Origin: Rubrobacter marinus
Lineage (GTDB): Bacteria; Actinomycetota; Rubrobacteria; Rubrobacterales; Rubrobacteraceae
Reading direction: 5' to 3'
Assembly (NCBI RefSeq): GCF_011492965.1
Contig: NZ_CP045121.1
Coordinates: 310,001-374,000 of the forward strand
Length of the DNA: 64,000 bases
Below the pieces are notes generated by a model. The model was not told where the DNA came from, ran no database searches, and worked only from the letters and a program-made list of their open reading frames with translations. Made by a program: the position numbers and the translations under genes. Shown piece by piece: positions 6,568 through 19,056 of this stretch; within the stretch, counting starts at the first letter, position 1, and the number at the start of each line of letters is the position of its first letter.

Positions 6568-7085
6568 ATCCCGGCGGGGGTATCGTTTGCATCCCCGTGG
6601 CATACAGGAGGGTACGGAAACGGACACCGGCGATCGACCTGTCTCTGGCCCGGCGGCGGGACGACGGGTCCCCGGTGCTCCGTGCTTTCCTCGACACGTT
6701 CGCGAAGGTCTCCGAAGGGAGCATTAGAGGAGCCTGACCAGAAATTCCTTAAGGGGAGCGGTACGAACGATGCCATCTTCAGGATGCACTGCTCGTCCGA
6801 AGACGGCCCCTTGGCTCCGGGTCGATCTCGACATCTCCGCGAGCGTCGTTCTCCAGCGCTACCGGGAAGCGTACGACGCCGCAGAACTGTAGCTTGGCGG
6901 CTTACCGTGCCCGCGCCGTGTTAGGCAACCGCTGCAACCTTACGTCTCCATCTCCGAAATCCTCACCGGTGGCGGATCTCCGCGTGGGGGACCCCGGCCG
7001 AGAACGGAACCCGTATACTACGAGTAATCTGCTTAACAGCTTGTTGCATCTGATGGCGGGTTCGTCGGGCGAGGAGTGGGTCAGG

Positions 7086-7818
7086 TTGGATAAGATCGAG
7101 AGAACCTCCCTGGCCGACGCCGTTACGGACAGGGTCATCTCCCAGATACGGGAAGGCCGGTACCGTGCCGGGATCGTCTCCCGACCGAGAGGGAGCTCGC
7201 GGAGCAATTGGGGTCGGCAGGACCTCGGTGCGCGAGGGACTACGGTTCCTGGAGAAGCTGGGCATACTGGAGATCCGCCAGGGGACGGGGACTGTGGTGC
7301 GCTCCCTCTCGCTGGGGGAGGTCTTCGAGCACCTGCTCCCCGTTCAGACGATCATCGAGCTCCCCGACAGAGACGTCCGCAACATCATGCACGTGAGGCG
7401 TGTCCTGGAATCCGAGTCGGCCCACCTGGCGGCGCAGCATGCGACCGAGGAGCAACTCGAGCGTCTGGGGGAGCTTCTCGATGGCATGGCCGCTTCTCTG
7501 GAGAGGCCCAGAAACTACCTGGAATTGGACCTCGAGTTCCACGTGCTGGTCGCCGAAGCCGCGGCCAACCCCGTGCTGGCTCAATTGATCAACCTGATCC
7601 GCGACATCTACACCAGGTACTTCGAGATCGTGCTCGAGGACCCCGACATGAACACCACCTCGCTGGAGTTTCACCGCCAACTGTACGCGGCCCTTCGCGA
7701 ACGCAACGCCGACGCCGCCCGCCGACACATGCTCGCCCACCTGCGCCAGGCCGAGAGGGACGTGCTGAAGCTGCTCGACCCCACGGGCGAGAACGGCAAC
7801 GGCTCCCCGCCGCCGTAG
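7086..7818 (+). pseudogene. GntR-family regulator, FadR/FCD subgroup, two frameshifts
   Basis: TTG 7086 lies 9 bases after GAGGAG (ATG 7053 is an in-frame alternative). The N-terminal winged HTH reads LADAVTDRVISQIREGRY, then after one missing G near 7172 DRLPTERELAEQLG, and after another near 7214 VGRTSVREGLRFLEKLGI. This is the standard GntR sequence once two bases are restored. The C-terminal FCD domain is intact, with the metal-ligand pattern LDLEFHVLVAEAAANP, TTSLEFHRQLY and RRHMLAHL. FCD regulators sense sugar acids or organic acids. It sits just upstream of the sugar catabolic operon starting at 8490, so it is the best candidate regulator of that operon (inference). Confidence 0.8.
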
Positions 7819-8060
7819 AGCTCCTCGTTCCTCGTTATCCGGGAGGAACGCGCTCGATTCGAGGCGTACCGTCGAAGAACGGGTCGCCTCCGGGTCGGCG
7901 TCAGGCACGACACGAGGCGAAACGATCGGCGCAGTCGCCCCCGCGCAGCGGTATCTGCCGCTGACCCCTTCGAGATGGTCGCGTTGGCTGCGTCGACGAT
8001 CTAGCACGTCAGCAAGGCAACGACCGTCCCGACCCTCGTCGAACAGAGGCCTTTCGAGTC

Positions 8061-8299: not shown

Positions 8300-8489
8300 G
8301 CCGCCGGCTGAGACGTTGCCTTCGTTGTACGGCCGGGGTAGTGCTCCGGAGTGAGGGGGAGGGAGCCTTCTTCCGGGCACGCGTGGAGGGTTCTGTCGCT
8401 GAGTACCTTTGCCGGCCAATGCAATCAAGGTAACATTACGAGGGGTTGAAGCATTCGCGTCGGTCGAGACGCGAGGGGAAGGAGGAAAG

Positions 8490-9896
8490 GTGGCTGCGGG
8501 AAGTACCAGTTCTGGGAGCGCCGAGAGGCGCAGGTTCGTCAACGTCGCGGCGGCGATTACGGCGACGGGCGGGTTGCTGTTCGGCTACGACACGGGCGTG
8601 ATATCGGGCGCCTTGCCGTTCATCAGGGACGACTTCGGTATCTCCGCCTTCACGCAGGGCGTCGTCGTTAGCTTCCTGCTCGTAGGCGCGATGGTCGGCG
8701 CGCTCTCGGGGGGGCCGCTCTCCGACAGGATCGGGCGCAGGTCGACCGCGCTCATCGCCGCCGTCATCTTCGGGGTGGGGGCGTTGGTCGTTGCTCTTGC
8801 GCCGAGCGTCGCCGTCATTATCTTGGGCCGCTTCGTGCTCGGTTTAGGGGTCGGTCTCGCGTCGATGATCGTGCCGCTCTACATAGCGGAGATAGCTCCG
8901 GCCGACAGGCGGGGCGGGCTCGTCTCGCTCAACCAGCTTCTGATCACCGTCGGCATCCTCGTCTCCTACATCGTCGGCGTGATCTTCGCTCCGGTCGAGG
9001 GCTGGCGCTGGATGTTCGGCGTCGCCCTGATCCCGGCTCTCGTCCTGTTCTTCGGCATGCTCAGGTTGCCCGAGAGCCCGCGCTGGCTCTTCGAGCAGGG
9101 GCGGACGGATCAGGCCCGCTCCGTGCTCAGCCGCTCCCGTAGCGAAGCGGAGATAGAGCGGGAGATCCAGGACATGCAGCAGATAAAGGAGCAGGAGCTC
9201 CAGCAGTCGCAGGCGGGGTACGGGGAGCTCCTGGCCCCCTACGTGCGGCCCGCGCTCGTCATAGGCATCGGGCTCGCGATCTTCCAGCAGGTCACCGGCA
9301 TCAACACCGTCATCTACTACGCCCCCACGATCCTGGAGAGCGTGGGCTTCTCCGTGCAGGGCGCGCTCGTCGCGAACGCTCTGGGCGTGGGGCTGGTCAA
9401 CGTCGGGTTCACCATCCTCGCCGTCCGCATCATTGACCGCGTCGGACGCAGGCCGCTGCTCCTCATCGGCCTCGTCGGCATGACCATCAGCCTCGCCCTG
9501 CTCGCCATAGTCTTCACCGTGGGCGGCGAGTCGGTGAGCACCGGCCTGGGCATCCTGGCGACGGTCTGCCTGGCGCTCTACATCGCGTCGTTCGCGATCA
9601 GCCTCGGGCCGGTTTTCTGGCTGATGATCTCCGAGATCTACCCCTTGAGGATCCGGGGCACCGCCATGAGCGCGGCCTCCATCGCCAACTGGGGCTCGAA
9701 CTTTATCGTCGCCCTGTCGTTCCCGGTCTTGCTGGCGGCTCTGGGCGGCGCGACCTTGTTCTGGGTGTTCGCCGTGCTCGGCATCGTGGCGTGGGTCTTT
9801 ATCTACTTCCGCGTGCCCGAGACGAAGAACCGCACCCTCGAGGAGATAGAGGCGAGCTTCCGCGGTACGCAGGTGGCCTCGAGCCGCGTGCGCTAG
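8490..9896 (+). CDS. MFS sugar:H+ symporter (SP family)
   Basis: GTG 8490 directly follows GGAGGAAAG, giving 468 residues with twelve hydrophobic segments. Sugar-porter signatures are all present: GYDTGVISGALPFI in TM1, SDRIGRRS in loop 2-3, PESPRWLFEQGR after TM6, QQVTGINTVIYYAPTI in TM7, RVGRRPLLL in loop 8-9, and PETKNRTLEEIE at the C-terminus. The family imports hexoses, pentoses or inositol with protons. As the first gene of an operon with beta-phosphoglucomutase, glucokinase and a GH65 enzyme, it probably imports glucose or a glucosyl disaccharide (inference). Confidence 0.9.
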   Translation: MAAGSTSSGSAERRRFVNVAAAITATGGLLFGYDTGVISGALPFIRDDFGISAFTQGVVVSFLLVGAMVGALSGGPLSDRIGRRSTALIAAVIFGVGALVVALAPSVAVIILGRFVLGLGVGLASMIVPLYIAEIAPADRRGGLVSLNQLLITVGILVSYIVGVIFAPVEGWRWMFGVALIPALVLFFGMLRLPESPRWLFEQGRTDQARSVLSRSRSEAEIEREIQDMQQIKEQELQQSQAGYGELLAPYVRPALVIGIGLAIFQQVTGINTVIYYAPTILESVGFSVQGALVANALGVGLVNVGFTILAVRIIDRVGRRPLLLIGLVGMTISLALLAIVFTVGGESVSTGLGILATVCLALYIASFAISLGPVFWLMISEIYPLRIRGTAMSAASIANWGSNFIVALSFPVLLAALGGATLFWVFAVLGIVAWVFIYFRVPETKNRTLEEIEASFRGTQVASSRVR

Positions 9897-9911: not shown

Positions 9912-10697
9912 GTGGCATTTACCGGAGCTATCTTCGACGTCGACGGGGTGTTGGTCGACTCGCCGCACGAGAAGGCGTGGCGCGAGGGCCTGAGGCAGCT
10001 CATGGAGGGCGACTGGAGCGACATAAGGGAGCAGACCTCCTGGTCGCCGGAGGCGTTCACCCCGCAGGTCTACCAGAGGGAGATGAGCGGCAAGCCGCGC
10101 TTCAAGGGGGCGCAGGCGGCGCTGGAGTACTTCGGCGTCCCCGACGCCGAGCGGCGGGCCCTGGAGTACGGCAACCGCAAGCAGGAGATGATTGTCGAGC
10201 TTATCGAGGCCGCCGACTTCGAGGAGTATCCCGACGCCCTGCGCTTCGTGCTCGAGGTCAAGGCGGCGGGCATCCTGATCGCCGCCGCCTCCTCGTCCAA
10301 GAACGCCGGCGCCTTCCTCAGGCTCGTCCGCCTGGATGCTTTCGCCGAGAAGGAGGGCCTCGGCTACGATTTTCTGCGCCCCGGTTACACGCTGCTCGAC
10401 ATCCTCGACGGCGACGTGAGCGGGCGCGACTTCGCTCAAGGCAAGCCGCACCCGGAGATCTTTCTGACCGCCGCCGGGGAGCTGAGCCTCGCGCCCGGGG
10501 AGTGCTTCGTGGTCGAGGACGCCGTCAACGGGGTGCAGGCGGCGAAGGCCGGCGAGATGACCGCCCTCGGCGTCGCGCGCGCCGACGACGAGGAGGCGCT
10601 GGCCGAGGCGGGCGCGGACCTGGTGGTGACGAGCCTCGACGACGTCTCCGTCGGCGCGCTCGCCGAGGGGCGCCTGGAGCGGGCGAGCGTGCGGTGA
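9912..10697 (+). CDS. pgmB: HAD-superfamily hydrolase, beta-phosphoglucomutase-like
   Basis: GTG 9912 follows GGGGGGATC. The 261-residue protein has HAD motif I FDVDGVLVDS (nucleophile Asp9 and acid/base Asp11), motif II in AAASSS, motif III Lys in GKPHPEIF, and motif IV VVEDAVNGVQAA. The cap insertion after motif I is of the beta-PGM type, though longer than in Lactococcus PgmB. The enzyme would convert beta-glucose 1-phosphate, the product of inverting GH65 phosphorylases, to glucose 6-phosphate. Genes for both partner steps follow. It also matches the N-terminal domain of mycobacterial OtsB1 (Rv2006) in position. Confidence 0.82.
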   Translation: MAFTGAIFDVDGVLVDSPHEKAWREGLRQLMEGDWSDIREQTSWSPEAFTPQVYQREMSGKPRFKGAQAALEYFGVPDAERRALEYGNRKQEMIVELIEAADFEEYPDALRFVLEVKAAGILIAAASSSKNAGAFLRLVRLDAFAEKEGLGYDFLRPGYTLLDILDGDVSGRDFAQGKPHPEIFLTAAGELSLAPGECFVVEDAVNGVQAAKAGEMTALGVARADDEEALAEAGADLVVTSLDDVSVGALAEGRLERASVR

Positions 10698-10745
10698 CGG
10701 AGCCTCGCTGGCGCCCGTCCGTATAGAAGGACGAGGAGGTAGAGG

Positions 10746-11714
10746 ATGAACGCCATTGGGGTGGACGTCGGCGGGACCAAGATAGCCGCCGCGGTGGTTT
10801 CCTCGGAGGGCGAGATCCTGAACGAGGTCAGGTATCCGACGCAGGCGGTCCCGCCGAACCGGTTGGTGGAGACGATAGCCAGGGCGGTCACGGAGGTCAA
10901 GGACGGCTACGCGGTGGGCGGGGTGTGCCTGGCCGTTCCGGGTCTTATCCTGGCCGCAGAGAACAAGGTCGTCTTCTCGCCCAACCTCCACGAGATAGAA
11001 GACATCCGTCTCGACGAGGAGATGGGGCGGAGAACGGGCCTGTCGGTGACCGTGGAGAACGACGCGAACGCGGCCGCCTGGGGGGAGTTCCGGTTCGGCG
11101 CCGGCAAGGACGTCGATCATCTCGTCTTTATCACCCTCGGCACCGGGGTCGGCGGCGGGGTCATCACCCACGGGGTCCTGCTGAGGGGCTCCCAGGGGTC
11201 CGGCGGGGAGTTGGGGCACGTGACCATAGACCCCGCGGGGCCGCGTTGCGGCTGCGGCAACCACGGCTGTCTCGAGGCCCTCGCCTCGGGCACGGCCATC
11301 GAGCGCCGCGCCCGCGAGGTCGCCAGCGAGCTGCCGAACTCCGCGCTGGGGCGGCTCGCCATCCAGAGGCGCGTGCTCGGGGAGGACGTGACGAGGCTCG
11401 CCCAGGAGGGCGACGAGGCCGCCTTGCAAGTGCTGCAGGAGACCGGCATGTGGCTGGGGATCGGCCTGGCGGGGTTCGTGAACGTCTTCAACCCGGAGGT
11501 GATCGCCGTCGGCGGCGGCGCCTCCCGGGCGGGGGAGTTCGTTCTTGGTCCCGCGCGCAAGGAGGTGCAACTCAGGGCCCGCTCCCCGTCGCGGGATCTG
11601 GTCCAGATACAGGAGGCGAGCCTCGGCCCGGAATCCGGCGTGCTCGGCGCCGCCGCGCTCGCCCGGGGCGAGGACGGGGAGTACGTGCTCGGTCCCTCCA
11701 AGCGCGTGACATGA
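10746..11714 (+). CDS. glk: ROK-family glucokinase
   Basis: The 322-residue protein starts at ATG 10746 after AGGAGGTAGAGG. It has the ATP-binding GVDVGGTKIAAAVV at the N-terminus, the catalytic ENDANAAAWGE, and the ROK zinc signature GELGHVTIDP with CGCGNHGCLEA near residues 157-178. It phosphorylates glucose released by the GH65 phosphorylase or imported by the symporter. Its stop overlaps the possible ATG 11711 of the OtsB gene. It interrupts what in mycobacteria is one fused HAD-OtsB-GH65 protein. Confidence 0.9.
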   Translation: MNAIGVDVGGTKIAAAVVSSEGEILNEVRYPTQAVPPNRLVETIARAVTEVKDGYAVGGVCLAVPGLILAAENKVVFSPNLHEIEDIRLDEEMGRRTGLSVTVENDANAAAWGEFRFGAGKDVDHLVFITLGTGVGGGVITHGVLLRGSQGSGGELGHVTIDPAGPRCGCGNHGCLEALASGTAIERRAREVASELPNSALGRLAIQRRVLGEDVTRLAQEGDEAALQVLQETGMWLGIGLAGFVNVFNPEVIAVGGGASRAGEFVLGPARKEVQLRARSPSRDLVQIQEASLGPESGVLGAAALARGEDGEYVLGPSKRVT

Positions 11715-11728
11715 GAGAGGGGGAGTTC

Positions 11729-12550
11729 GTGGCCAGAAACATCGGCGACCTGCCGCACGCGCTCCACGACGGCGAGGAGTTGGCCCGGCGCCTCGCGGGG
11801 AAGCGGCCGGCCGTGTTCCTCGACTACGACGGGACGCTGACCCCGATCGTGGACAGGCCGGAGGACGCGATCATCTCGGAGAGCATGCGAGACGCCGTGC
11901 GTGGTCTGGCCGGCCGGTGCCCGGTGTGCGTGGTGAGCGGGCGAGACAGGCAGGTCGTGCAGGAGCTTATGGGCGTGGACGACCTCATCGTCGCGGGCAG
12001 CCACGGCTTCGACATCTGGAGCCCCTCGGGCGGCGAGATCCAGCGCGAGGAGGGCGCGGGGTCCAGAGACCTGCTCGACGGGGTGAAGGAGAGGCTGCGC
12101 CGGGAGATCGGGTCGATCGAAGGCGCGCTCATCGAGCCGAAACAGACCTCGGTCGCCGCCCACTACCGGCTCGTCTCCGAGGAGGAGAGGCCGAAGGTCG
12201 CGGCGGTCGTCGAGGCGGTCCTCTCCGAGCACCCGGACGAGTTGAAGGTGACGCCCGGCAAGATGGTCTACGAGATCCAGCCGAAGATAGATTGGGACAA
12301 GGGGAAGGCCGTCCTCTACCTGCTGCACGCTTTGGAGCTCGACAGCGATGACGTCGTGCCGATCTACCTCGGCGACGACATCACCGACGAGCACGCCTTC
12401 GAGGCGCTCGCGGGGGCGTCGCCGAAGGGCATCGGCGTATTCGTCGGCCGCGCCGACGACCCGGAGGTGGCCGGGAGGACCACCTCCGCCGACTACGTCC
12501 TCAACACGATGGGGGAAGTGGAGCGGTTCCTGGACACGCTCGCGCGCTGA
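11729..12550 (+). CDS. otsB: Trehalose-6-phosphate phosphatase
   Basis: The product has 273 residues from GTG 11729 (AGAGAGGGGGAG just upstream); the ATG at 11711 overlapping the glk stop is an alternative. HAD motifs are complete: VFLDYDGTLTPIVDRP with the Asp nucleophile, VVSGRDRQVVQEL, GSHGFDIW, and IYLGDDITDEHAF near the C-terminus. KMVYEIQPKIDWDKGKA is the OtsB substrate-cap lysine region. The enzyme releases trehalose from trehalose 6-phosphate. No otsA is seen in the window, and the next gene is a GH65 enzyme, so the product could be degraded on the spot or the pair may scavenge trehalose 6-phosphate. Confidence 0.92.
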   Translation: MARNIGDLPHALHDGEELARRLAGKRPAVFLDYDGTLTPIVDRPEDAIISESMRDAVRGLAGRCPVCVVSGRDRQVVQELMGVDDLIVAGSHGFDIWSPSGGEIQREEGAGSRDLLDGVKERLRREIGSIEGALIEPKQTSVAAHYRLVSEEERPKVAAVVEAVLSEHPDELKVTPGKMVYEIQPKIDWDKGKAVLYLLHALELDSDDVVPIYLGDDITDEHAFEALAGASPKGIGVFVGRADDPEVAGRTTSADYVLNTMGEVERFLDTLAR

Positions 12551-12588
12551 GTTCGACCGGTCACCACGAGACGCCTAAGGAGCAAACG

Positions 12589-15012
12589 ATGCTGGAAGAG
12601 AGAGCAGGAACCACGGGGCCGAACTGGACCCTCGCCTACGACTCCTTCGAGCCCGAGCAGGAGGGGCTGCGCGAGGCCCTGACCTCCACCGGCAACGGCT
12701 ACTTCTGCACGCGGGGTACCCTGGCGTGGGCCGAGGCCGACGGGGTGAGCTACCCGGGCACCTACACCCACGGCGGGTTCAACCGGGAGACCACCATCAT
12801 GAACGGGGTGCCGGTCCTCAACGAGGACCTGGTAAACCTCCCGAACTGGCTCTTGCTCGAGCTCAGAATAGAGGGGGAGGAGGCCGTCGACATGAGCAAC
12901 GTCGAGCTCCTCTCCTACCGCCACGAGTACGACGTCCGAAACGCGGCGCTCCGGCGCGTCTCGAGGTTCCGCGACCGGGCGGGCCGCGAGACGACGCTGG
13001 AGACGCGCCGCTTCGTCAGCATGGCCGACATGCACCAGGCGGCGATGCAGTGGACCGTCACGCCGGAGAACTGGTCGGGCAGGGTCGAGGTGATCTCCTC
13101 GCTGGACGGGCGGGTCACGAACGGGGGCGTCGCCCGCTACAGCAGGCTCGAGGGTCGCCACCTCGACCCCGTCTCCCCCAGGACGTTCGGTCCCGAGATC
13201 ATCGCCCTCGAGGCACGGACCCGCCAGTCGCGGATCTACGTCGCCGAGGCGGCCCGCACCCGCGTCTACGGCGAGGACGGCGGGGTGCTCGACGTACGCC
13301 GCGGCCTCTACCAGATGCAGGACTACATCCACCAGGTGCTCTCCTTCGAGGTCGAGGAGGGGAGGCCCGCGCGGATCGAGAAGATGGTCTCTTTCTACAC
13401 GTCGCGAGACAGCGCCATAAACGAGCCGCTGACCAACGCCGGCAAGGCCGTCGGCCGCTACGGGACGTACGAGGAGGCCTTCGAGCGCCACGCCCGGGCG
13501 TGGGACGAGTTGTGGGACGTGTGCGACGTGCTCGTCCCCCGGGACGACCGGGTGCAGCTCCTGCTGCGCCTGCACATCTCCCACGTCCTCCAGGTCTGCT
13601 CGCCCCACACGGCCGACCTCGACGCCGGCGTCCCGGCCCGGGGGCTCAACGGCGAGGCCTACCGCGGCCACATCTTCTGGGACGAGCTCTTCATCTACCC
13701 GTTCCTGAACTTCCGGCTGCCCGAGATCACGCGCGGCCTCCTGATGTACCGCTACCGCAGGCTAAACGAGGCCCGGGCGGCGGCGAAGGAGGCCGGTTAC
13801 GAGGGGGCGATGTACCCCTGGCAGAGCGGCTCCGACGGGCAGGAGGAGACCCAGACCGTACACCTGAACCCCAAGTCGGGGAGGTGGGAGCCGGACCTCT
13901 CCCACAACCAGCGCCACGTCAGCGCGGACATCTTCTACAACATCTGGCGCTACTACGAGGCGACGGGCGATTTCGAGTTCCTGCTCGACTACGGCGCCGA
14001 GATGATGCTCGACATCGCCCGCTTCTGGGCGAGCATCGCCCACTACAACCCCGAGCGAGACCGCTACGAGATCCACGGCGTCATGGGCCCGGACGAGTTC
14101 CACGAGAAGTACCCGGGCTCGGACGAGGAGGGGCTCAGGAACAACGCCTACACCAACGTGATGGTCGCTTGGCTCTCCGAGATCTCCCTGGAGGTGCTGG
14201 ATCTCCTCACCGAGCGCCACCGGAAGGCGCTGAGCGCCAGGATCGGCCTGACCGACGACGAGGTGGGAACCCTGGAGGAGATGAGCCGCAAGATGTTCGT
14301 CCCGTTCCACGGCGACGGGATCGTCAGCCAGTTCGAGGGCTACGAGGACCTCGAAGAACTGGACTGGGAATCCTATCGGGAGAAGTACGGCAACATCCAG
14401 CGGCTCGACCGCATCCTGAAGGCCGAGGGGGACGACCCGGACAAGTACAAGCTGACCAAGCAGGCCGACGCCGTGCTGCTCTTCTTCCTGTTCCCGTCCG
14501 ACGTCCTGCGGCGGCTCTTCGAACGGCTCGGCTACGACTACGAGCCCGAGATGGTGCGCAAGAACGTCGACTACTACGACGGCCGGACCTCCCACGGCTC
14601 CACCCTGAGCTTTATCGCCCACGCCGGCATCCTCGCCGGCATCCACCCCGAGAGCTCGTGGACCCGGTACATGGTGGCTTTGGAGAGCGACGTCGGCGAC
14701 GTGCAGGGCGGCACCACCCAGGAGGGCATCCACATGGGGGTGATGGCGGGGACGCTGGACCTCATCCAGCGCGGCTACCTGGGCACCGAGATCCGCGACG
14801 GGACGCTCTACTTCGACCCGAAGCCCGTGGGGAACCTGGACGGGCTGTCGTTCCCCATGCGCTTCCGCGGGACGCCGCTGGAGGTGACGCTCGAAGGGGG
14901 CGAGCTGAGGGTCGCCGCGCAGGCCGACGGCCTCAACCAACCCGTCAAGGTCGGCGTCAACGGGACCGTCGAGGAGATAGAGGCCGGCGAGAGCCACACC
15001 TTCGTCCTCTGA
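12589..15012 (+). CDS. Glycoside hydrolase family 65 protein (trehalose/maltose/kojibiose phosphorylase type)
   Basis: The 807-residue protein starts at ATG 12589 after TAAGGAGC. GH65 landmarks are in order: FWDELFIYPF near 366, YPWQSGSDGQEET near 408, the catalytic acid Glu in VMGPDEFHEKYPG near 502, NNAYTN, KQADAVLL near 624, and the phosphate-binding SHGSTLS near 669. The C-terminal jelly-roll ends at 807. Together these indicate an inverting phosphorylase giving beta-glucose 1-phosphate plus glucose. The disaccharide (trehalose, maltose, nigerose or kojibiose) cannot be read safely. The otsB neighbour favours trehalose; upstream PgmB and glucokinase handle both products. Confidence 0.9.
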   Translation: MLEERAGTTGPNWTLAYDSFEPEQEGLREALTSTGNGYFCTRGTLAWAEADGVSYPGTYTHGGFNRETTIMNGVPVLNEDLVNLPNWLLLELRIEGEEAVDMSNVELLSYRHEYDVRNAALRRVSRFRDRAGRETTLETRRFVSMADMHQAAMQWTVTPENWSGRVEVISSLDGRVTNGGVARYSRLEGRHLDPVSPRTFGPEIIALEARTRQSRIYVAEAARTRVYGEDGGVLDVRRGLYQMQDYIHQVLSFEVEEGRPARIEKMVSFYTSRDSAINEPLTNAGKAVGRYGTYEEAFERHARAWDELWDVCDVLVPRDDRVQLLLRLHISHVLQVCSPHTADLDAGVPARGLNGEAYRGHIFWDELFIYPFLNFRLPEITRGLLMYRYRRLNEARAAAKEAGYEGAMYPWQSGSDGQEETQTVHLNPKSGRWEPDLSHNQRHVSADIFYNIWRYYEATGDFEFLLDYGAEMMLDIARFWASIAHYNPERDRYEIHGVMGPDEFHEKYPGSDEEGLRNNAYTNVMVAWLSEISLEVLDLLTERHRKALSARIGLTDDEVGTLEEMSRKMFVPFHGDGIVSQFEGYEDLEELDWESYREKYGNIQRLDRILKAEGDDPDKYKLTKQADAVLLFFLFPSDVLRRLFERLGYDYEPEMVRKNVDYYDGRTSHGSTLSFIAHAGILAGIHPESSWTRYMVALESDVGDVQGGTTQEGIHMGVMAGTLDLIQRGYLGTEIRDGTLYFDPKPVGNLDGLSFPMRFRGTPLEVTLEGGELRVAAQADGLNQPVKVGVNGTVEEIEAGESHTFVL

Positions 15013-15066
15013 GATGCGTGGGGGGCGGACCGTATGGATTATCTTCGGCGCGAAGGAGGAGTATCC

Positions 15067-16509
15067 GTGGTAGAGCGCATAGTGATCTTCGGGGCCACCG
15101 GGGACCTGACGGGGCGGTACCTGATGCCCGCCCTGGCCAAACTCTACGAGGCCGGCAAGCTGCCGGGCGGGATCAGGATCACCGGGGTGGACCGCAGGGG
15201 GTGGGAGGACGACGAGGCGGGCTTCCGCCGCCTGGTGCTGGACAACCTGGAGCGCCACGCGGGCGGCGTGTCGGCGAGCGTCCGCGAGAAGATGGCCCTT
15301 GAGGTCGTGGAGTACCGCCGGGCCGACGTGACCGACGCCGAGAGCGTCATCTCCGCCCTCGGGCCGCTGACGGGGCCGATCCTGGCCTACCTGGCCCTGC
15401 CGCCGGCGGTCTTCGCCCCGACGATCGAGGCGTTGAAGGCGGCCGACCTTCCGGAGGGGAGCCGCGTCGCCGTCGAGAAGCCCTTCGGGGTGGACCTGGA
15501 GTCGGCCCAGAATCTCAACCGGCTGCTGCACGAGTTTCTCCCCGAGTCGGCCATTTTCCGCGTGGACCACTTCCTCGCCTGGCAGCCGTTCCCCACGATC
15601 ATGGGGCTGCGCTTCGCGAACGGGATCTTCGAGCCGCTCTGGGACCGCAACTTTATAGATCGCGTCGAGATCGTCTGGGAGGAGACCCTGGCGCTGGAGG
15701 GGAGGGCCGGCTACTTCGACCACGCCGGGGCGTTCAAGGACCTGATCCAGAACCACCTCCTCCAGCTTCTGTGCCTGACCGCTATGGAGGCCCCGACCGC
15801 CCTCCACCGGCGCAACCTGCGCGACCGCAAGGTGGACCTCCTGCGGGCCATCCGGCGCCTCTCCCCCGAGGAGGCGCGCCTTCAAACCGTGCGCGCCCGC
15901 TATTCCGCCGGCAAGATCGGGGAGAGGAGCATCCCGGCGTACGCCGACGAGGAGGGGGTGGACCCGGACCGCGGGACCGAGACCTTCGCCGAGGTCACGC
16001 TCTCCATAGAGAACCTGCGCTGGGCGGGGGTGCCGTTCGTGCTGCGCGCGGGCAAGGCCCTGAGCGGTTTTCGCGGCGAGATCGCCGTCCACTTCAAGCC
16101 GGTGCCCCACCTTGCGTTCCAGCGCGCCGACGACCCCCGGCCCAACGTGCTCCGCGTCGGGCTGGAGCCGAACAGGGTGACTTTGAACCTGAACGTCAAC
16201 GGACCCTACGACCCCTTCGACCTGGAACAGATAGAGCTCGGCGCCGCCCTCGACCCTCAGGAGTTTTTCGCCGCCTACGAGGCCCTCTTCCTCGACCTGC
16301 TCGAAGGCAACACCACCCTCTTCGTGCGGGCCGACGAGGCGGAAGAGGCGTGGCGCGTGAGCGAGCCGATCCTGGACGCGTGGGAGAAGGGGCTGGTGCC
16401 GCTCCTCGAATACCCCGCCGGCTCGAACGGCCCCGCCGAGGCGCCGGCCGAGCCGGAGCCGTCCAGGAGCGGCGCGGGCCGCGAGGAGCCGACCCCGTGG
16501 GCCCGCTGA
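15067..16509 (+). CDS. Divergent glucose-6-phosphate dehydrogenase (Zwf) homologue lacking phosphate-binding residues
   Basis: GTG 15067 follows GAAGGAGGA; 480 residues, normal Zwf length. Dinucleotide motif FGATGDL, EKPFGVDLESAQNLN, FRVDHFLAWQ (catalytic Asp near 166), FANGIFEPLWD, GRAGYFDHAGAFKDLIQNH (catalytic His) and TTLFVRADEAEEAW are present. Aligned by eye with Leuconostoc G6PDH, the residues that hold the 6-phosphate are changed: Tyr179 to Phe, Lys182 to Trp (RIDHYLGKE against RVDHFLAWQ), Lys343 to Phe (GKRLAAK against GKALSGF), and Lys21 to Tyr. The catalytic pair is kept. It may therefore oxidise an unphosphorylated sugar (inference). Neighbours encode KDG kinase and KDPG aldolase. 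Confidence 0.85.
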   Translation: MVERIVIFGATGDLTGRYLMPALAKLYEAGKLPGGIRITGVDRRGWEDDEAGFRRLVLDNLERHAGGVSASVREKMALEVVEYRRADVTDAESVISALGPLTGPILAYLALPPAVFAPTIEALKAADLPEGSRVAVEKPFGVDLESAQNLNRLLHEFLPESAIFRVDHFLAWQPFPTIMGLRFANGIFEPLWDRNFIDRVEIVWEETLALEGRAGYFDHAGAFKDLIQNHLLQLLCLTAMEAPTALHRRNLRDRKVDLLRAIRRLSPEEARLQTVRARYSAGKIGERSIPAYADEEGVDPDRGTETFAEVTLSIENLRWAGVPFVLRAGKALSGFRGEIAVHFKPVPHLAFQRADDPRPNVLRVGLEPNRVTLNLNVNGPYDPFDLEQIELGAALDPQEFFAAYEALFLDLLEGNTTLFVRADEAEEAWRVSEPILDAWEKGLVPLLEYPAGSNGPAEAPAEPEPSRSGAGREEPTPWAR

Positions 16510-17353: not shown

Positions 17354-17444
17354 TACGAGGGATGCCGACGGATGGCCGCAACCCGCGCGGCGGGTCGATG
17401 GCCACCGGAGCAGCGACGCTCCCGTCGCGGGGAGGTTGGGGAAG

Positions 17445-18395
17445 ATGAGCACTTTGCAACTGACGACCCTGGGCGAGGCTCTGGTGGTGATGGACCCCGT
17501 CTCCAGGGGGCACCTCAGGCACGTCGGCGGGTTCGAGAAGAACCTGGGCGGGGCCGAGCTCAACGTGGCGGTGGGCCTCTCGAGGCTCGGGCACCGGGTC
17601 GGGTGGGCGGGGCGGCTCGGCGACGACGAGTTCGGGAAGGAGATCCTGACCTTCGCGCGGGGAGAAGGGGTGGACGTCTCCGGGGCGGCCATGGACACCG
17701 AGGCCCCGACCGGCCTCTACTTCAAGGAGTGGAGGGCCCTCGGCCAGCTGCGCGTCTATTACTACCGGGCGGGCTCGGCGGCGAGCCGGATGCGTTTCGA
17801 GGACCTGGACCTGGAGCACCTGCTCTCCGGCGAGATCCTGCACCTCACCGGCATCACGCCCGCCCTCTCGGAGGGCTGCCACGACCTGGTCGAGCGCCTC
17901 CTCTCCGCGGCCAACGAGCGGGGCGTCGCCGTCTCCTTCGACGTCAACGTGCGGTGGAAGCTGTTCGAGGGGCGCGACCCGCGCATGGTCCTGGGTCCCC
18001 TCGCCGCCCGCGCCGACCTCGTCTTCCTCTCGGACGAAGAGGCCGAGCTCCTGTTCGGGGGGAGCGATCCGGCCTCCATCCAGGAGGCCATGCCGGGCAC
18101 AAGGGCCGGGACCGTGGTCGTCCACGGGGCGGCGGGCGCCTTCGCCGTGGAGGAGGGAGGCGTCTTCGAGAAGGCGTCCTACCCGGTGGAGGTGGTGGAT
18201 ACCGTGGGGGCGGGCGACGCGTTCGTCGCGGGGTTTCTCTCCGGGCGGCTGAGGGGTTGGAACGCGGAGGAGTGCCTGGACATGGCCAACGCCTGCGGCG
18301 CGTGCGCGGTCACCGTGCCGGGGGACCTCAAGGGGCTCCCCACGACCGAAGAAGCCCTGGCGCTCATGCGCGGTCGTCCGGGCGTCGAGCGCTAG
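17445..18395 (+). CDS. kdgK: PfkB-family sugar kinase, 2-keto-3-deoxygluconate kinase-like
   Basis: ATG 17445 follows GGGGAGG; 316 residues. PfkB features: GGAELNVAVGLSRLG near residue 32 (first signature), the substrate-lid region, DVNVRWKLF near 165, and the anion-hole/catalytic motif DTVGAGDAFVAGF near 250 with the catalytic Asp. The YYYRAGSAASRM segment is characteristic of KDG kinases. It would phosphorylate 2-keto-3-deoxygluconate to KDPG. The next gene, 17 bases downstream, is the KDPG aldolase, which supports the assignment. Fructokinase or ribokinase are less likely. Confidence 0.86.
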   Translation: MSTLQLTTLGEALVVMDPVSRGHLRHVGGFEKNLGGAELNVAVGLSRLGHRVGWAGRLGDDEFGKEILTFARGEGVDVSGAAMDTEAPTGLYFKEWRALGQLRVYYYRAGSAASRMRFEDLDLEHLLSGEILHLTGITPALSEGCHDLVERLLSAANERGVAVSFDVNVRWKLFEGRDPRMVLGPLAARADLVFLSDEEAELLFGGSDPASIQEAMPGTRAGTVVVHGAAGAFAVEEGGVFEKASYPVEVVDTVGAGDAFVAGFLSGRLRGWNAEECLDMANACGACAVTVPGDLKGLPTTEEALALMRGRPGVER

Positions 18396-18411: not shown

Positions 18412-19056
18412 ATGGAGCGAGATTCGATCCTGAAGAGGACCGGGGACCTGGGGCTCGTGGCCGTGGTTCGGGGGGAGTCGCGGGAGGCCGCGCTGGAGGT
18501 GGTCGACGCCCTCGTCGAGGGCGGCGTCCTGGGCATCGAGATCACCTTCACCACCCCCGATGCCCCGCTGGTCATACGGGACCTGAACGAGAAGTACGGA
18601 GACGACATCCTCCTCGGCGCCGGGACCGTGATCACCCGCGGACAGGCGGAGGAGTCGGCGAGGGCCGGGGCGACCTTCCTCGTCAGCCCGGGCTCGGACC
18701 CGGAGCTTCTGCCCGCCATGCTGGACACCGGTCTCCTGGTGCTGCCGGGCGCCCTCACACCCTCTGAGGTAATGATCGCCCGCAGGCTGGGCGCGCAGGC
18801 GTTGAAGCTCTTCCCGGGCTCCCTGGGCGGTCCGTCCCACCTCAAGGCCCTGCGCGGCCCCTTCCCCGACGTGCCCTTCATACCCACGGGCGGCGTCTCC
18901 TTGGACAACATCGCCGACTGGTTCGCGGCCGGTGCCCTCGCGGTCGGCGCCGGAGGAGCCCTGGTCCCGTCGTCGCTGGGGGGGCGAGACCGCGGCGAGG
19001 TAGTCGAGACGGCGCGGCGGTTCGCCGAGGCCGTGCGTGCGGCCAGGGAGCGCTGA
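18412..19056 (+). CDS. eda: 2-dehydro-3-deoxyphosphogluconate (KDPG) aldolase
   Basis: ATG 18412 follows GGGAGGGAGACGGGAGC; 214 residues, the usual class I KDPG aldolase size. VVRGES at the N-terminus, the catalytic Glu in GIEITFTTPDA near 43, GAGTVI, and the Schiff-base Lys in AQALKLFPGSLGG near 126 are all present, with PTGGVSLDN near 157 as the phosphate site. It cleaves KDPG to pyruvate and glyceraldehyde 3-phosphate. It is the last gene of the operon beginning at 8490. No 6-phosphogluconate or gluconate dehydratase is seen in the window. Confidence 0.93.
   Translation: MERDSILKRTGDLGLVAVVRGESREAALEVVDALVEGGVLGIEITFTTPDAPLVIRDLNEKYGDDILLGAGTVITRGQAEESARAGATFLVSPGSDPELLPAMLDTGLLVLPGALTPSEVMIARRLGAQALKLFPGSLGGPSHLKALRGPFPDVPFIPTGGVSLDNIADWFAAGALAVGAGGALVPSSLGGRDRGEVVETARRFAEAVRAARER

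Follow-up and report, generated by a model that had tools for sequence, protein, structure and literature searches.

A 64,000-nucleotide stretch of Rubrobacter marinus DNA (the window; contig NZ_CP045121.1, positions 310,001 to 374,000) carries at 9912-15012 of its forward strand the genes of a beta-phosphoglucomutase-like HAD protein, a ROK-family sugar kinase, an OtsB-type trehalose-6-phosphate (T6P) phosphatase and a GH65 enzyme. An earlier note, made from the sequence alone, had reported these four genes, and their place, strand and order are confirmed. The core formed by HAD, OtsB and GH65 may be a module that makes trehalose from glucose 6-phosphate (G6P) without a nucleotide sugar, a reading to which a probability of about one half is given here. 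The GH65 enzyme is decisive for this interpretation, since its specificity positions point to T6P rather than to trehalose.

Enzymes and neighbouring genes in the window

The substrate of GH65 phosphorylases can be predicted from six specificity positions defined and tested by De Beul et al. (PMC8537180), which are used here in the numbering of the Caldicellulosiruptor kojibiose phosphorylase CsKP (64, 392, 394, 402, 416 and 585). The published motifs are TRIGPP for trehalose phosphorylase, EEAPxx for kojibiose phosphorylase, KV[MF]NES for maltose phosphorylase, FAITQA for alpha-1,3-oligoglucan phosphorylase and DQGQDE for T6P phosphorylase (PMC8537180). The last of these predicted the T6P phosphorylase of Caldithrix abyssi, which the same study confirmed by T6P made from beta-glucose 1-phosphate (beta-G1P) and G6P. 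Aligned to CsKP, the window enzyme reads DQGQDE (D80, Q412, G414, Q422, D436, E613). The reference controls CsKP and LbMP read EEAPWE and KV-N-S (KVF-ES in a second alignment), which are the published motifs apart from gaps. The tree separates the clade of the window enzyme from a TRIxPP clade with good support, to which GH65 proteins from other members of the genus and family (Rubrobacteraceae G003 and G014) belong. A trehalose phosphorylase was rejected on these two grounds, and the fingerprint fits none of the trehalose, maltose, kojibiose and nigerose phosphorylases, the activities that the earlier note had proposed to assay.

The N-terminal, central and C-terminal GH65 domains and the GH65 fold are all present. 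Phosphorylases are recognised by two Ser, a His and a Lys at the phosphate site instead of the Glu that serves hydrolases as a base (PMC8626586). By these criteria, the window protein has the general acid (E503) and a phosphate site (S671, T672, H715), in which the Ser to Thr and Lys to Arg replacements are conservative. The Arg at the Lys position is shared with the protein of PDB entry 9lb6. The position of the hydrolase base, mapped by motif spacing, is occupied by Q706. A hydrolase was rejected because the phosphate site is present and no base Glu stands at the inferred position; on this point, the earlier note had called the enzyme correctly. The window GH65 thus likely combines phosphorylase chemistry with T6P, rather than trehalose, as its disaccharide.

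The structure model of the protein (pLDDT 89.7) matches 9lb6 from Weissella ceti best among PDB entries (TM 0.91), and this entry is closest by sequence as well (34% identity). The names given to 9lb6 and 9lb7 conflict, one field stating T6P hydrolase and another T6P phosphatase, and the literature search found no paper describing 9lb6; the entry is read here as a T6P-active GH65. Three arginines (R391, R605 and R608) are nearly invariant in the window clade and in 9lb6 and are absent from kojibiose, maltose and glucosylglycerol phosphorylases. They are candidates that may hold the 6-phosphate of T6P.

Families were assigned with Pfam profiles and with NCBIfam models, the latter judged at their curated cut-offs. 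The names of the HAD, ROK and GH65 proteins are valid at the subfamily level only, because all three fall below the cut-offs of specific NCBIfam models. The HAD protein stays below TIGR02009 and TIGR01990 (81 bits versus 189 for the latter) and passes only a broad HAD-IA subfamily model, and the ROK protein comes close to but stays below the glucokinase model TIGR00744 (239 bits versus 260). The active-site residues of beta-phosphoglucomutase (D, D, H, R, S, S, N, K, E and D) are all present in the HAD protein, in which 15 of 15 checked positions are identical to those of the Mycobacterium tuberculosis beta-phosphoglucomutase structure 8h5s. OtsB exceeds the cut-off of the trehalose-phosphatase model TIGR00685 (167 bits versus 68), and its HAD-IIB catalytic motifs DxDGT, SGR, K and GDDxTDE are intact.

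The gene set is wider than the four genes described in the earlier note. A transporter gene lies upstream, and the genes from zwf to a KDPG/KHG aldolase gene follow downstream on the same strand (Table 1). The gaps from the transporter gene to zwf are, in order, 15, 48, -4, 38 and 21 bp, the negative value reflecting the OtsB ATG, which overlaps the ROK stop codon by 4 bases. Behind zwf, the gaps through PF04199, PfkB and the aldolase gene measure 172, 82 and 16 bp. The transporter gene, which stops 15 bp short of the HAD gene, is a probable member of the operon; its product scores 440 bits with the NCBIfam GlcP model, below the cut-off of 750.

Table 1. Genes of the set and its flanks; positions are those of the window.
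Feature	Position	Strand	Basis
Sugar-porter MFS transporter (glucose/xylose type)	8409-9896	+	PF00083 1e-132; TIGR00879 above cut-off
Beta-phosphoglucomutase-like HAD, 261 aa	9912-10697	+	PF00702
ROK-family sugar kinase, probable glucokinase, 322 aa	10746-11714	+	PF00480 2e-78
OtsB-type trehalose-6-phosphate phosphatase, 279 aa	11711-12550	+	PF02358 8e-49; TIGR00685
GH65 enzyme, 807 aa	12589-15012	+	PF03636/PF03632/PF03633; central domain 1.5e-124
Glucose-6-phosphate dehydrogenase (zwf), uses G6P	15034-16509	+	PRK12853 511 bits vs cut-off 428
PF04199 protein	between zwf and PfkB kinase	+	Pfam
PfkB sugar kinase, KDG-kinase-like	17436-18395	+	PF00294; KDG kinase models below cut-off
KDPG/KHG aldolase (eda), Entner-Doudoroff step	18412-19056	+	TIGR01182 195 bits vs cut-off 156

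Further upstream, the gene of a FadR/GntR-type regulator is split (6894-7964 and 7165-7818), with the DNA-binding N-terminal part and the FCD part in different frames. The regulator is possibly broken, or the split is a sequencing frameshift.

Distribution and fusion states

The survey drew on two sets of 80, one of regions taken from genomes of the same phylum and one of named loci collected with a mycobacterial fusion protein as the query, and profiles were built for the parts. Its tallies are not frequencies, as the two sets share some loci, the fusion query introduces a bias into the named set and mycobacteria are over-represented. Counted in this way, the loci with a GH65 of the window clade include 63 with HAD-OtsB-GH65 fusions and one more with a split HAD, 11 with a HAD-OtsB fusion adjoining GH65, 9 with OtsB-GH65 and 10 with HAD-GH65 fusions. 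OtsB and GH65 are adjacent at 16 loci, all three parts are separate at 5, and GH65 stands alone or with partners below threshold at 24. Fusions occur in mycobacteria, Nocardia, Thermodesulfobacteriota, Campylobacterota, Thioalkalivibrio and others. Most clade members outside the mycobacteria match all six T6P positions, as does the window enzyme, and variation concerns position 64 (D, S, H, C or E) and, in parts of the clade, position 402 (Q or P).

The whole set including ROK is found again in Rubrobacteraceae AVDCRST_MAG02 (L090/L242); judged by GH65, the closest relative that has a name is an uncultured Rubrobacteraceae bacterium. Since this set recurs there and HAD-OtsB-GH65 recurs across many phyla, the arrangement in the window is not due to chance. 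The three-part core is fused, partly fused or adjacent in many phyla. ROK is rarely included: among the surveyed loci, the kinase is confined to the window and two close relatives (L090/L242 and L091). Nor is the unfused state special; the earlier note had read too much into it. Fully separate sets are present in Pontibacter, one Omnitrophota, one Dormibacteraeota and other Rubrobacteraceae. The unfused state is common and the ROK glucokinase is a local addition. The idea that separate genes represent a rare ancestor was rejected, as they are scattered over phyla.

Some loci depart from these patterns. At L158, L159, L160 and L161-L169, a cassette-type OtsB occurs with no GH65 within the fetched stretch; at L168 and L169, it lies beside TreT and OtsA. 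In Rubrobacter and a relative, a polyphosphate kinase 2 gene is located just downstream of or near the GH65 gene of an OtsB-GH65 pair, at L253 (Rubrobacter radiotolerans plasmid 2), L096 and L100.

Proposed trehalose synthesis and competing explanations

In the proposed module, the HAD protein would convert G6P to beta-G1P as a beta-phosphoglucomutase, and GH65, acting as a T6P phosphorylase in reverse, would combine beta-G1P and G6P to T6P and phosphate. OtsB would then irreversibly dephosphorylate T6P to trehalose and thereby pull the reversible steps forward. Overall, the pathway should run downhill, since the hydrolysis of two G6P releases more than the trehalose bond costs. In the window, G6P would be made from glucose by way of the transporter and the ROK kinase, and zwf and the Entner-Doudoroff genes would draw on the same supply. 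The substrate, the direction of flux, channelling between the parts and the role in R. marinus are what we infer from the gene content and its context. In vitro, a T6P phosphorylase has made T6P with a yield of 93% (PMC13121652).

The fusions are consistent with synthesis. A T6P phosphatase and a T6P phosphorylase in one chain would compete for their substrate in breakdown and form a series in synthesis, so fusion fits the latter. Genomes that carry the module and have neither OtsA (PF00982) nor an EIIC component of the phosphotransferase system (PTS) point in the same direction. Six such genomes were found, namely G023 (100% complete), the isolate Thioalkalivibrio thiocyanoxidans ARh2 and four metagenome-assembled genomes (MAGs), although such absences are weak evidence in draft genomes and the genome-wide survey was confined to OtsA and EIIC, leaving TreT, TreS and TreYZ outside. 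Having neither OtsA nor PTS EIIC, these six carriers possess no obvious other source of T6P. OtsA is likewise missing from two further genomes (G013 and G024), in which PTS genes are present.

The neighbours of the module are trehalose genes. The commonest Pfam family among 91 flanking proteins is GT20/OtsA (7), and neither a trehalase nor a PTS family is among the 25 listed Pfam families. In Sulfurovum, the fusion is directly followed by OtsA and PGI, and in T. thiocyanoxidans, TreT immediately precedes HAD-OtsB and GH65. In Bacteroidota and Cloacimonadota (L227, L229, L235), HAD-OtsB and GH65 adjoin an OtsA-OtsB fusion whose OtsB part is degenerate (D to N); the HAD-OtsB protein may provide the phosphatase in its stead. 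A Thioalkalivibrio MAG in which no OtsA was found encodes a HAD-OtsB-GH65 fusion followed by GlgB, GlgE and a TreS-maltokinase (L213, 68-11963). This arrangement is read as a GlgE glycogen operon that brings along its own source of trehalose, in which the GlgB-GlgE-TreS/Mak pathway turns trehalose into glycogen. Because Thioalkalivibrio species are obligate chemoautotrophs (PMC9062515), sugar breakdown is an unlikely purpose there.

Several points weigh against trehalose synthesis as the function of the module. OtsA is also present in most carriers (44 of 50 named genomes and 36 of 42 in the other genome set), and the window genome itself has OtsA (C1:747187) and a second OtsB (C1:749238). T. 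thiocyanoxidans has an alternative trehalose route in its TreT. Many actinobacteria possess HAD-GH65 or GH65 without OtsB; in the close relative G205, the same HAD-ROK-GH65-zwf operon has lost OtsB without a remnant and contains unrelated sequence in its place (L091, 8206-8619). The operon in the window resembles, overall, a sugar-utilisation operon. A recent review places T6P phosphorylase under degradation only (PMC12125463), and the activity and flux of the module are predictions. In M. tuberculosis, deletion of otsA lifts the essentiality of otsB2 (PMC5148154), which implies that OtsA is the main T6P source during growth; a role in dormancy is untouched by that result.

The foremost rival is control or breakdown of T6P. 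GH65 would run forward, splitting T6P with phosphate into beta-G1P and G6P, the HAD protein would return beta-G1P to G6P for zwf, and OtsB would provide a second exit, so that T6P made by OtsA is recycled. The fingerprint and the active sites fit this direction equally, zwf lies directly 3' of GH65, OtsA adjoins the module in several carriers and G205 manages without the cassette OtsB. T6P accumulation is toxic in M. tuberculosis (PMC5148154), and the Lactococcus T6P phosphorylase is catabolic, as far as it is cited in PMC12125463. For the window itself, forward phosphorolysis feeding zwf is a serious rival, if an unlikely one. It leaves unexplained why phosphatase and phosphorylase, which would compete for one substrate, are fused, and it sits poorly with the six carriers without OtsA and EIIC and with the GlgE operon context in Thioalkalivibrio, which requires trehalose as the product. 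T6P import by a PTS was rejected for the window genome, in which no EIIC (PF02378) was found.

A clearly less probable route is that of the earlier note, in which OtsB forms trehalose from T6P, GH65 splits trehalose by phosphorolysis into glucose and beta-G1P, and the ROK and HAD proteins convert both to G6P. The gene order, the phosphorylase-type active site and the presence of the kinase, a sugar transporter and zwf in one run would agree with it. It conflicts with the fingerprint of a T6P phosphorylase, which makes the chain unlikely, and with the TRIxPP clade, which is separate and is represented in other Rubrobacteraceae. A T6P phosphorylase running forward yields no glucose and hence no substrate for a glucokinase. 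The kinase, which that note took as the inserted part completing the pathway, is missing from nearly all carriers. Least probable, by a small step, is a different natural glucoside of the GH65 clade (for example, a phosphorylated sugar alcohol glucoside), with OtsB acting on the phosphorylated glucoside: the variable positions 64 and 402, the GH65 subgroups left without an identifiable natural substrate (PMC8537180) and the conflicting names of 9lb6 would allow it, and the full match of the window and most non-mycobacterial members to the T6P positions, the score of OtsB above the curated trehalose-phosphatase cut-off and the neighbouring trehalose genes stand against it.

Nucleotide-sugar-free synthesis of trehalose is therefore the preferred reading of the core. 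A wider proposal is more tentative, falling somewhat short of an even chance: a natural and widespread route from two G6P to trehalose and two phosphates, often in one trifunctional protein, which would feed the GlgE glycogen pathway in some autotrophs and survive as a relic or a dormancy form in the OtsB1 of M. tuberculosis. Such a trehalose route is absent from the published lists examined and would save one nucleotide triphosphate per trehalose. No prior report of T6P phosphorylase in trehalose synthesis was recognised in the open-access literature, most subscription journals lying outside the search. The parts belong to known families; no account of them working together as a trehalose route free of nucleotide sugars turned up in the literature searched. 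R. radiotolerans carries an OtsB-GH65 pair on a plasmid. Its genome paper names four trehalose routes, OtsB-GH65 not among them, and trehalose has been linked to radiation resistance in this species (PMC4148983, PMC3505630).

Mycobacterial OtsB1 and other known systems

The earlier note had likened the gene set to M. tuberculosis OtsB1 (Rv2006, 1327 aa). The likeness holds in that HAD, OtsB and GH65 parts of the OtsB1 type are homologous and stand in the same order, the window GH65 being 46-47% identical to the GH65 part of mycobacterial fusions, with the GH65 active site intact in both; the comparison was made with mycobacterial OtsB1-type homologues, not with Rv2006 itself, as no M. tuberculosis hit was recognised in a sample of 297 genomes of the mycobacterial genus. 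OtsB1-type proteins are one polypeptide, whereas the window has separate genes and thus no fusion. The mycobacterial GH65 parts mostly read SQGQDE or SQGPDE, compared with DQGQDE in the window. The mycobacterial fusion would represent the proposed module as a single chain, with partial decay in many species. Fusions of about 1320-1380 aa keep the full HAD signature (e.g. L178, L176, L201), and by length alone, its sequence not being compared, Rv2006 would fall in this class. The HAD cap and key catalytic residues are gone from shorter fusions of about 1220-1270 aa (L123, L170, L171-L175, L180-L183, L185-L188, L191, L193-L195, L197, L199, L205). Asn replaces the OtsB nucleophile Asp in M. innocens, M. 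ostraviense and M. gastri of the kansasii group (L187, L191, L199) and in M. angelicum (L170), where the phosphatase domain is probably dead. The GH65 general acid and phosphate-site residues are intact throughout, including in fusions with a decayed HAD part.

A 2024 review lists OtsB1 as a protein of unknown function (PMC11046441). According to a 2025 proteomic study, OtsB1 is found only in carbon-starved M. tuberculosis, is controlled by DosR and KstR1 and has never been biochemically characterised; a claim from 2004 that it lacks phosphatase activity gave no data (PMC12090744). The hint that the separate genes could explain the fused protein stands, by another route than the one first proposed. 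With the intact enzymes of an unfused relative, the three-step hypothesis makes OtsB1 function testable by ordinary enzymology.

Among characterised enzymes, the GH65 T6P phosphorylases (EC 2.4.1.216; Caldithrix CaGP and Lactococcus TrePP) share all six DQGQDE positions with the window protein, along with a conserved general acid and phosphate site. TrePP serves trehalose use, as cited in PMC12125463, whereas the window GH65 sits with an OtsB phosphatase in a genome in which no PTS EIIC was found. The fold and phosphorylase chemistry are also those of GH65 trehalose phosphorylase (EC 2.4.1.64, TRIGPP), which differs in fingerprint and clade. The OtsA-OtsB pathway (TPS/TPP) has the T6P intermediate and the OtsB step in common with the module. 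Its T6P is made from UDP- or ADP-glucose by a GT20 enzyme, while the module would obtain it from beta-G1P and G6P through a phosphorylase. A parallel to the proposed chemistry is offered by in vitro T6P cocktails, in which a T6P phosphorylase joins beta-G1P and G6P in the presence of a glucokinase (PMC13121652). These cocktails are man-made, draw beta-G1P from maltose, end at T6P and are called "new-to-nature" by their authors.

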